A DNA stretch of 64,000 nucleotides from Thermanaerothrix daxensis (GTDB lineage Bacteria > Chloroflexota > Anaerolineae > Anaerolineales > Anaerolineaceae): assembly GCF_001306145.1 (NCBI RefSeq), contig NZ_LGKO01000005.1, positions 434,001-498,000 of the forward strand, read 5' to 3'. This document shows, one piece after another, positions 7,722 through 55,149 of the stretch. Within the stretch, counting starts at the first letter, position 1; each line of letters starts with the position of its first letter. The notes below the pieces were generated by a model. The model searched no databases, had not been told where the DNA came from, and was given only the letters and a program-made list of their open reading frames with translations. The position numbers and the translations under genes are program-made.

Positions 7722-8468
7722 TTACACCATAATTTGCATTAAATCGCGTGCCAGTGAGACTGGGCCGGTAAAGGCCTTACGTGCGCGTGCTACCCAGGCT
7801 TCGGGCTGGGTTAGAGGGGGGGTGTGGATAAGGTAGAGCGCCCCAACCTGCGCCTGAGCGGCAATGTGCCCGGCCTGTTCAGGAGAGGTGTGACCGGGCC
7901 CCTCACCGGTGGCTTCGTGCAGGAGGACATTGACCCCCTGAGCCAGGCGGATTACATTCTCGCAGGGCTCTGTGTCGCTGGAGTAGGCAAGGCTCCCGTT
8001 TGCCAGTTCGATGCGCAGCCCCAGGGTGGGCAGGAAATGCTTAACTGGGGCCGCATAAACCCGCCAGAGGGGAGTGTGAATGAAACAAGTCATGGCCTCT
8101 TCGGGTACATGGATATATTCCACCGGATAGAAACCCGGCCATTTCTCCCACTCATAAAGGTCCATCATGGACTGCAGGCGTTCCATTGCGTGAGCCGGTC
8201 CGTAAACCTTAAGGGGATCCTGCCGCCCGAGGAGCCATAGATCCATCAGCAGCAAGGGCACCCCAGACACATGATCCGGGTGAAAGTGCGTGATGATCAG
8301 GCTGTTAATGTGACGCCAGGAGAGACCCGCGCGCATTAAGCGAGCAATGGGGCTCCCGGGGGCATCAATCAATAGAATCTGATCCTCTTCAACGATTGCC
8401 AGGTGAGTATTTTCGCGATGTTCATCGGCAACCGCATAGGCCGAACCCAGGATTACAATGCGTCCCAT
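7722..8468 (-). CDS. MBL-fold metallohydrolase, ribonuclease Z-like
   Basis: A 248-residue cytoplasmic metallo-beta-lactamase-fold hydrolase. The zinc motif THFHPDHVSG lies near residue 60, further ligands are in SSDTEP near 155 and LLHEATG near 175, and HTP near 222 completes the site. The order and length match short ribonuclease Z-like or arylsulfatase-like proteins, but the RNase Z exosite is not evident, so the substrate may be an ester rather than a tRNA precursor. It is the last gene of a long minus-strand run, 48 bases after the ABC permease. Confidence 0.75.
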   Translation of the reverse strand: MGRIVILGSAYAVADEHRENTHLAIVEEDQILLIDAPGSPIARLMRAGLSWRHINSLIITHFHPDHVSGVPLLLMDLWLLGRQDPLKVYGPAHAMERLQSMMDLYEWEKWPGFYPVEYIHVPEEAMTCFIHTPLWRVYAAPVKHFLPTLGLRIELANGSLAYSSDTEPCENVIRLAQGVNVLLHEATGEGPGHTSPEQAGHIAAQAQVGALYLIHTPPLTQPEAWVARARKAFTGPVSLARDLMQIMV

Positions 8469-34164: not shown

Positions 34165-34450
34165 ATAAAAACCCTCTGTCCACTTCAGGGACGAGAGGGC
34201 TTCTCGCGGTACCACCCTGATTCCTGCCCACAGGCAGGCACTCTGCCAGGTACGCCCGGTTTCCCGTTGATACCTGCGCCGCGGATAACGGCTGGCGAGG
34301 CCGGCGCCCCTACTGACGAACCTGTCGGTTCGCGTTCAGTTTGCAGCTCCGGAAGGATTTTCGGCTCACCGATCTGCCCCGGCTCACACTCTCCCAGGTT
34401 CGCTGACAGCCTCTAATGAGCCTACTCGTTTCCATCATCGCTTTTGAGAT
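34165..34450 (-). promoter_or_regulatory. T-box leader of ileS (tRNA-Ile sensing)
   Basis: On the minus strand the 14-base conserved T-box AGGGTGGTACCGCG is perfect at 34205-34218. It is followed by a terminator hairpin (34171-34198, ACCCTCT paired with AGAGGG in plus-strand terms) and then a T-rich run, so the leader attenuates by transcription termination. Stem I features are present upstream, and the likely specifier is AUC at 34356-34358, within GAAAATCCTTCC, an isoleucine codon that fits the downstream gene. Uncharged tRNA-Ile should bind and favour the antiterminator, raising ileS expression. Confidence 0.92.
34171..34198 (-). terminator. T-box intrinsic terminator
   Basis: Hairpin of about seven base pairs immediately downstream of the T-box sequence, followed on the minus strand by TTTTTATTT. 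It is part of the ileS attenuator. Confidence 0.85.
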
Positions 34451-52776: not shown

Positions 52777-53997
52777 TTACGGCATCAGCACCAGGGGCAC
52801 GGGTGTGAAGATCAGGACAAAGATGATCAGCATGATCGCACCCAACAAGCGTCGCTGTCCATCCAATTCAGTGATTTGATCTAGCGGCTCGGCGTAAACG
52901 CGCCCGAAGAAGAAAATCAGCAGGGCCCACAGCCACCAACCGCTCCAGATGAACCCCATTAGAATCAGCACAGCGAGGATGATTGGGAAGAGCGCTTGAG
53001 CTCGTTTGCGCCCGAAAAGCGTGTAAAGGATGTGTCCTCCATCAAGTTGACCCGCGGGGATGAGATTCAGGGCTGTGATCAACAAGCCTCCCCAGCCCGC
53101 CCATGCCACTGGATGCAACACCACATCCAGACCACCGTAGGGCAGGGGCTGCCCGGTCACGAGATAGCGCAGCCAGTAGAGCAGGGGCGGTAAGCCTTGA
53201 TAGGAGACCGGTTCGGGCAACAATCGTCCAAACACTAGAAATTTGAGAAACAAGTAAAGGATGGAGTTACCCTCTAACTGAGCCTGGCCCAGGACACCCG
53301 GCTGGGGAAAGGCCGGCAACGGCTCCAACCGCGAAAGCGAGAGGCCGATTAAAAGAACCGGGATGGCTACCACCAATCCACTGAGGGGGCCGGCGATGCC
53401 AATATCCATTAAGATGCGCCGGTTGCGGGGCACTTCTTTCATGTTTATAAAAGCCCCCATGGTGCCAAACGGGCTGATTGGGAACGGAAGGGGGAGGAAG
53501 TAGGGTAGGGTAACGTGCACGCCGTGGTGACGGCCCATCAGATAGTGTCCGAACTCATGCGCCGCCAGGATGGCCATCATGCTGAGCGCAAAGGGCCATC
53601 CGGCGCGGAGCAGTTGCAGGATGACCTGAGGGGCAGAGCCGCTGAGTTCCCCTTCACTGCCCAGGATTCCGCCAGTAAACCATACACTGAGCAGGGTCAG
53701 AATGAACATGATCAGGTTTACAGCGGGGTTTGAAGGGCGGGCGGAAGGAAGCCCGCGGATGATGTAGATGACGTGACGCTCCTCTTCAGTGCGGAACAGT
53801 GGAGTCAGTCCCAGGGGTTTCAATTGTGTGCTAAGCGTATCGTAAGCAGTGGCGGAGTCCGGTGCTACCAAGCGTCCGCGGTAGCGCACGATATAGGGGG
53901 TGCGTTCACTCCCCAGGGTAACATCCTCGATGTGAAAGATGCGCCGCACATAGGTTTCGACAAGATCCTGACGCTGAAGGTCAAATGTGTAGTCCAT
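52777..53997 (-). CDS. Site-2 protease-like M50 metallopeptidase
   Basis: A 406-residue intramembrane zinc protease. The zinc motif AAHEFGHYL lies near residue 145, with the third ligand in GQLDGGHILY near 320. About seven spans are visible, and the N-terminal 90 residues are a soluble region. This layout matches the cyanobacterial and chloroplast EGY-like group, a broad S2P branch, rather than RseP, as no PDZ domain is seen. Substrate unknown. ATG 53997 follows AAGGGGA by about seven bases. It lies five bases before PolX on the same strand, 62 bases after the selenocysteine tRNA gene. Confidence 0.85.
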   Translation of the reverse strand: MDYTFDLQRQDLVETYVRRIFHIEDVTLGSERTPYIVRYRGRLVAPDSATAYDTLSTQLKPLGLTPLFRTEEERHVIYIIRGLPSARPSNPAVNLIMFILTLLSVWFTGGILGSEGELSGSAPQVILQLLRAGWPFALSMMAILAAHEFGHYLMGRHHGVHVTLPYFLPLPFPISPFGTMGAFINMKEVPRNRRILMDIGIAGPLSGLVVAIPVLLIGLSLSRLEPLPAFPQPGVLGQAQLEGNSILYLFLKFLVFGRLLPEPVSYQGLPPLLYWLRYLVTGQPLPYGGLDVVLHPVAWAGWGGLLITALNLIPAGQLDGGHILYTLFGRKRAQALFPIILAVLILMGFIWSGWWLWALLIFFFGRVYAEPLDQITELDGQRRLLGAIMLIIFVLIFTPVPLVLMP

Positions 53998-54059
53998 AAG
54001 GGATTCCCCTTGTTCGAGTTGCACAGAAAAATCAGCCGTTCATTCACCTCTGCTTGAGG

Positions 54060-54153
54060 CGGGGATGAATGGGAGTCGAACCCACCACGGCTCGCCACGC
54101 GACCCGTCACCGGTTTTGAAGACCGGGGGGCTCACCGGAGCCCTCCCATCCCC
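54060..54153 (-). tRNA. selC: tRNA-Sec (UCA anticodon)
   Basis: Ninety-four bases on the minus strand fold as a bacterial selenocysteine tRNA. The acceptor stem has eight pairs, counting one G-U (GGGGATGG with TCATCCCC). A six-pair D stem GGGCTC / GAGCCC closes a four-base loop. The anticodon stem CCGGT / ACCGG holds the loop CTTCAAA with anticodon UCA. A long variable arm follows, and the T arm GTGGG TTCGACT CCCAT has five pairs. No CCA is encoded. This eight-plus-five geometry and six-pair D stem separate it from a suppressor tRNA-Ser. It implies that UGA is decoded as selenocysteine in this organism. selA, selB and selD are not in the window. Confidence 0.95.
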
Positions 54154-54160
54154 ACCTCTA

Positions 54161-54189
54161 AGGATAATTCAGCCCCTATAATTCGTCAA
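54161..54189 (-). promoter_or_regulatory. selC promoter
   Basis: On the minus strand TTGACG (54189-54184) and TATCCT (54166-54161) are separated by exactly 17 bases. The expected start at about 54154 coincides with the mature 5' end of the tRNA. Confidence 0.8.
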
Positions 54190-54720: not shown

Positions 54721-55149
54721 GCTCCAGGTCGGTCTATAAGCCGCATTCTGTCCGTCCGGTGGGTATCTCTGGTCAGCCCAGAGACGGCACCGGCCGGGAT
54801 GATCATCTATCTGGGCGAGCCGTTACCGACTCGCTCTAGCGGCCTACCCGGGGCTCCAGGGAGGCGAGCCACCTCCCGCCCGCTGACGCGGGCTTTGCCC
54901 CTGCTTGGCCTTGCTCCCGGTGGGGGTTACCTAGCCGCCTGTATTACTACAGGCGCTGGTGGTCTCTTACACCACCTTTTCACTATCACCACTCGCTCCC
55001 CCTCAGGGGTGGCGAGGGCTACCTGTTTCTGTGGCCCTATCCGGCGAGTTACCCCGCCCCGGGTATTACCCGGCACCGTGCTCTGTGGAGTGCGGACTTT
55101 CCTCAGTCTCGCGCCTGGCGAGACCGCGATCATCCGACCGGCCTGGAGC
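54721..55149 (-). ncRNA. rnpB: RNase P RNA (class A)
   Basis: Catalytic RNA that removes tRNA 5' leaders. On the minus strand the ends pair as P1 (GCTCCAGG with CCTGGAGC). Near the 5' end the conserved GAGGAAAGTCC block is present, followed by ACAGAA. The 3' region carries the GACAGAATGCGGCTTATAGA block of the universal core. About 430 bases is a normal class A length. The 3' end is followed by a run of six T on the minus strand at 54715-54710, consistent with termination. Confidence 0.95.

Follow-up and report, generated by a model that had tools for sequence, protein, structure and literature searches.

In eukaryotes, RNA polymerase III starts transcription of the selenocysteine tRNA (tRNA-Sec) at its first base, and the 5′ triphosphate is retained. 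The polymerase and the promoter of that system differ from those of the bacterial case described here. Excerpts of PMC5356446 treat eukaryotic tRNA-Sec as an exception to internal control by A and B boxes. The tRNAs of Nanoarchaeum equitans are described in excerpts of PMC3491384 and PMC10941002 as leaderless, starting at the mature end with a purine as we propose below for one bacterial tRNA. This archaeon lacks RNase P and makes up for it in all its tRNAs. Escherichia coli selC (RF01852) shares its fold, UCA anticodon and partner genes with the tRNA-Sec studied here; unlike the gap of 6 to 7 nt reported below, the sole TATAAT in the 70 bases upstream of selC is about 31 nt away from the tRNA, and a leader is thus expected. 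According to excerpts of PMC3874170, which cite Burkard and Soll 1988 for abnormal cleavage of the selC precursor, the RNase P RNA of bacteria cleaves pre-tRNA-Sec at position -1 and not between two G residues. A transcript starting at G1 of the tRNA would avoid that substrate, which may have been the motive for such a start. We found no description of a leaderless bacterial tRNA-Sec in the open-access literature searched.

Here we argue from comparative sequence analysis that a functional tRNA-Sec of Thermanaerothrix daxensis is quite probably the first cistron of a short unit with an M50 protease gene, its transcription starting at G1 and its 5′ end arising without RNase P. The window that we analyzed is a stretch of 64,000 nt (C2:434001-498000); the genome, 97% complete, comprises 3.01 Mb in 6 contigs. 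Its tRNA-Sec gene lies on the minus strand, and the mature part up to the discriminator G spans positions 54060 to 54153. ARAGORN placed a tRNA-SeC (tca) on the minus strand at 54058-54153, and the Rfam model RF01852 matched 54061-54153 of that strand with 76.9 bits (gathering score, 47; E 4.7e-14). Counted by hand, the acceptor stem has 8 pairs and the T stem 5, 13 together, and the D arm has a 6-pair stem and a 4-nt loop. The anticodon loop CTTCAAA, a long variable arm and the discriminator G were read from the sequence by hand. A preliminary description of this DNA, which had reported a complete tRNA-Sec with UCA anticodon, six-pair D stem and long variable arm, is thus borne out, and the tRNA itself is of an ordinary, known kind. 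Its 3′ end reads GCC-T, with CCA not encoded. This is no special trait of tRNA-Sec, as CCA ends only 1 of the 31 other tRNAs read in the genome (at ARAGORN gene ends).

Upstream of the gene, on the same strand, lie a -35 element TTGACG (54184 to 54189), a 17-nt spacer and a -10 element TATCCT followed by TA (54161 to 54166), with 7 nt between TATCCT and G1. The same description had named this promoter and had placed its start at the mature tRNA end. The elements were confirmed, with matches to the -35 element, the spacer and a TATNCT box in relatives, and the predicted start, G1 at 54153, is supported by spacing conserved across the family. Of the 147 family genomes searched, 107 had a strong tRNA-Sec match, and in 100 of these, which are related by descent and do not give independent counts, TATNCT ends 6 nt (35 genomes) or 7 nt (65 genomes) before G1. 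Greedy grouping reduced the 100 regions to 86 that are at most 80% alike; when the upstream regions were shuffled with their composition kept, TATNCT fell 6 to 7 nt from G1 in 0.4%. Among the 100 promoters, 83 have a 17-nt spacer, TA directly follows the box in 77, and position -1 is a pyrimidine (T or C) in all; the tRNA begins with GGG in 106 of the 107 genomes. Compared with a housekeeping sigma promoter of TTGACA/TATAAT and a 16- to 18-nt spacer, the family promoters fit in their -35 element and spacer, but the -10 element is mostly TATNCT, not TATAAT. Two of the seven exceptions have TATAAT or TATAGT, still 7 nt from G1 (L109 and L211), one has a weaker box at 6 nt (L362), and two have TATNCT at 9 and 8 nt (L183 and L367, the called 5′ end of the latter looking one base off); in the remaining two, no box was found upstream of the tRNA-Sec (L194 and L206). 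Housekeeping RNA polymerase usually starts 7 to 8 nt past the -10 box, and a gap of 6 to 7 nt therefore predicts a start at G1. The two sequence marks of a leaderless tRNA, a purine at mature +1 and a promoter spaced to start there, are thus both present.

The pattern recurred in all 11 genomes read (17 sampled) from a sister family of the order and was absent from L265, the sole genome read from another family of the order. The motif TATNCTTR within 35 nt upstream was found in 90 of the 118 tRNA-Sec genes pooled from the family, order and M50 sets and in 0 of 62 from elsewhere in the phylum. The M50-locus set described below (best 80 of 130 loci), which reaches more distant relatives, has the pattern at 45 of its 60 tRNA-Sec genes and lacks it at 15, several of which have TATAAT at least 12 nt upstream. 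Since the pattern is shared by the family and a sister family and missing in other lineages, the promoter state is lineage bound.

We then compared tRNA-Sec with other tRNAs under one scoring scheme, leaving out genes with fewer than 60 upstream bases. The other tRNAs, of which 83 were scanned and 49 well scored, came from the T. daxensis genome and its relatives; the 118 tRNA-Sec genes scanned were labelled as belonging to the order but include M50 loci (best 80 of 130) that may lie outside it. The gap is 6 to 7 nt in 96 of the 104 well-scored tRNA-Sec promoters versus 0 of the 49 well-scored others, where it is at least 9 nt in 48; tRNA-Sec alone among the scored tRNAs shows the 6- to 7-nt geometry. 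TATNCTTR occurred within 35 nt upstream of none of the 83 other tRNAs, whose -10 boxes are mostly TATAAT (26), TAAAAT (8) and TAGAAT (5). A pyrimidine at -1 is also found in 62 of these 83 and, being common there, is not decisive for a leaderless start.

Our model runs as follows. The housekeeping RNA polymerase would use the promoter TTGNCA, 17 nt, TATNCTTA, the distance between promoter and tRNA would fix the start at G1, and the 5′ end would be made by initiation rather than by RNase P. The transcript would continue into the M50 protease gene, an endonuclease, for instance RNase Z, would release the 3′ end of the tRNA before CCA addition, and SerRS, SelA, SelD and SelB would use the product for decoding UGA as Sec, in SelD at the least. 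We infer the start at G1, cotranscription, a 5′ end made without RNase P, 3′ processing and charging alike; comparative sequence supports leaderless, dicistronic production as the probable mode.

Conventional expression, in which tRNA-Sec is initiated 1 to 4 nt upstream of G1 and RNase P trims this very short leader as it does for the genome's other tRNAs, is a somewhat unlikely alternative. The genome encodes RNase P RNA, and short leaders are also predicted for the family's other tRNAs, with gaps of 9 to 16 nt in 40 of the 49 well-scored cases. Moreover, start-site choice can vary by 1 to 2 nt, and G stands at position -2 in 44 of the 100 family TATNCT promoters; RNase P may therefore trim a leader of 1 to 2 nt. 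By the usual start-site rules, however, a gap of 6 to 7 nt provides almost no leader space, and the contrast between 100 of 107 family tRNA-Sec genes and none of the 49 well-scored other tRNAs argues for initiation at G1.

The preliminary description had the tRNA-Sec gene standing alone. This did not hold, as the M50 metalloprotease gene (52777 to 53997, minus strand, ATG at 53997; PF02163, E 3.7e-19) begins 62 nt downstream on the same strand, and the pairing is common in relatives (57 of the best 80 of 130 M50 loci). Linkage in relatives suggests that it is the second cistron; the nearest named relative of its product, at 96% identity, is from an uncultured Thermanaerothrix, which points to a Chloroflexota bacterium of Anaerolineaceae type. 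We looked for relatives of the M50 protein, obtained 130 loci and analyzed the best 80. Sixty of these best 80 hold an ARAGORN-called tRNA-Sec, always upstream and on the same strand, with a median distance of 45 nt; the distance is 11 to 147 nt in 57 and 1.8 to 2.8 kb in the other 3. The remaining 20 of the best 80 comprise 4 at the end of a contig, of which 3 show the cut end of a tRNA-Sec, the loci L020 and L093, and 14 without a tRNA-Sec just upstream. In the family set (94 loci minus L217 and L340, which had no ARAGORN call), many of the 92 stretches are short; M50 sequence lies downstream of tRNA-Sec in 59 and is absent there in 33.

Two loci and one genus deserve mention. The tRNA-Sec of Leptolinea tardivitalis (L020, 7870-7962) has two anticodon-stem mismatches by hand count and was missed by ARAGORN; we do not regard it as a decayed gene, since Rfam accepts it at 62.9 bits. 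In L093, the tRNA-Sec beside the M50 gene (7847-7927) is without a T arm and the genome holds no other strong tRNA-Sec; this genome looks like G142 (identical match coordinates), which has selB. In one genus (L106, L108, L111), a lipoprotein-like frame about 15 nt after the tRNA-Sec replaces the M50 gene, and its product in L111 (1608-3029), right behind the tRNA-Sec, looks substrate-binding-like by eye.

The pairing could be an accident of gene order, with the M50 gene transcribed separately from a promoter of its own, which we consider unlikely. This reading is favored by the 14 of the best 80 of 130 M50 loci with neither a tRNA-Sec nor a remnant just upstream, and by terminator-like hairpins between tRNA-Sec and M50 in 5 of the 57 linked loci from the same best 80. 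These hairpins, the 3 of 60 loci with a distant tRNA-Sec (again among the best 80 of 130) and the 33 of 92 stretches free of M50 sequence indicate that the pairing is not obligatory. Against separate transcription, the gap is at most 50 nt in 33 of the 57 linked loci (best 80 of 130), tight for a second promoter and a ribosome site, and one relative, L028, retains the promoter without the tRNA.

The L028 genome, whose completeness is not given, has no strong tRNA-Sec match (best, 37.3 bits). Under a promoter model trained on 70 tRNA-Sec promoters, which average 26.3 bits, a promoter of 23.2 bits ends about 32 nt upstream of the ATG of its M50 gene. This is the top non-tRNA match in 2.29 million strand-bases, L068 aside, where the match is a tRNA-Sec itself with a wider gap. 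The nearest genome on the tree, L033 (SH-aLRT 93), has promoter, tRNA-Sec and M50 gene in a row. From the lone promoter in L028 and the full array in L033, we read this as a loss of the tRNA-Sec in which the promoter was apparently retained for the protease. L028 is the only one of the tRNA-less M50 loci tested to have a clear promoter, L072 scoring 7.0 bits and 11 others at most 6.4; L072 and L025 lack the tRNA at the M50 gene yet carry a tRNA-Sec elsewhere in their genomes.

Joining the dicistronic, G1-initiated unit to this history gives a broader proposal, for and against which we find the case evenly balanced: a bacterium with RNase P would exempt tRNA-Sec alone from it. Initiation at a dedicated promoter, conserved in two Anaerolineales families, would set the 5′ end, leaving a triphosphate and avoiding an unusually cut RNase P substrate, the M50 message would lie on the same transcript, and the promoter could outlast the loss of Sec for the sake of the protease. 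Unlike N. equitans, T. daxensis is not RNase P free, a class A RNase P RNA gene being present in the genome, and the geometry is confined to tRNA-Sec among the scored tRNAs. If the proposal is true, it would represent leaderless tRNA production in a bacterium with RNase P RNA, apparently undescribed in the open-access literature searched, and could spare tRNA-Sec a normally universal trimming step. It raises the questions of whether RNase P is needed at all for bacterial tRNA-Sec, whose acceptor stem is long, and whether a 5′ triphosphate is relevant to SelA or SelB.

It is distinctly unlikely that TATNCTTA instead serves an alternative sigma factor or is the binding site of a regulator, which would place the gene in a special regulon and make the spacing to G1 a by-product. 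In favor of this reading, position 5 of the -10 box is C in 96 of the 104 well-scored tRNA-Sec promoters versus 4 of the 49 well-scored other tRNAs, the base directly after the box is T in all of 70, and in the gap-7 set T occupies position -18 in 80%. In contrast, the -35 element is close to the housekeeping TTGACA and mostly at 17 nt, and L109 and L211 keep the 7-nt distance with TATAAT or TATAGT. The genome of T. daxensis contains only 4 sites of this type, that of tRNA-Sec included, which led us to reject a sel regulon on such promoters; two of the 3 others are TATACTTA, ahead of genes whose translations, read by eye, look like a methyltransferase and an aldehyde dehydrogenase, and the third was inspected at the sequence level.

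The preliminary description expected the organism to make selenoproteins and pointed to the absence of selA, selB and selD as the outcome that would speak against this. All three were found full length on contig C1: selA at 438.9 bits, selB at 342.6 bits (curated, 242.25) with a SelB-wing_3 domain, and selD at 356.9 bits (L003, 1471-2517). The selD reading frame contains exactly one TGA, which occupies the Sec position in the active site (context ...TCAG-TGA-ASKL); reading through it yields SelD at 363.2 bits, above the cut-off, and in a single-sequence fold a hairpin starts shortly past the UGA. Given the three genes and the TGA at the Sec position of selD, we predict that T. daxensis produces at least SelD as a selenoprotein, and gene content firmly supports Sec decoding as a predicted capacity of this genome. 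The suggested search for genes with an in-frame TGA and a hairpin succeeded for selD, which has both, but not for its own example, formate dehydrogenase: the two alpha-subunit matches over the curated cut-off have no TGA inside, and we rejected this enzyme as a selenoprotein. The earlier statement that no selenoprotein is evident in the window stands, in that of 44 read-through frames found there, 30 were listed and 7 put to Pfam, and in none of the 7 does a domain span the TGA. That the gene is a relic in a genome that has stopped decoding Sec is scarcely credible, since selA, selB and selD are full-length open reading frames and selD requires UGA decoding; nothing in this genome favors it, the nearest thing being the tRNA-Sec without a T arm in the relative L093.

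Across the 147 family genomes, tRNA-Sec and selB occur together in 98, neither occurs in 26, tRNA-Sec alone in 9 and selB alone in 14, by a hand tally in which three partial selB matches were scored as present. A repeated search of 8 of the 14 selB-only genomes with laxer filters gave nothing above the gathering score of 47.0 bits. Four genomes (G036, G051, G071 and G124) combine a strong selB with no tRNA-Sec above 47.0 bits under these filters, and one of them, G036, is 99% complete.

On the other side of the tRNA-Sec, the RNase P RNA class A gene (54721-55145, minus strand, 253.3 bits) lies about 570 bases upstream of the tRNA 5′ end, with a DUF4190-like gene in between whose DUF4190 match is under the curated cut-off. 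A tie between the two RNA genes was considered and rejected; the neighbor recurs in L014 only, 1 of the 8 relative loci scanned, and we therefore take the adjacency to be chance. Elsewhere in the window, a T-box leader was found at 34184-34447 on the minus strand (98.4 bits).
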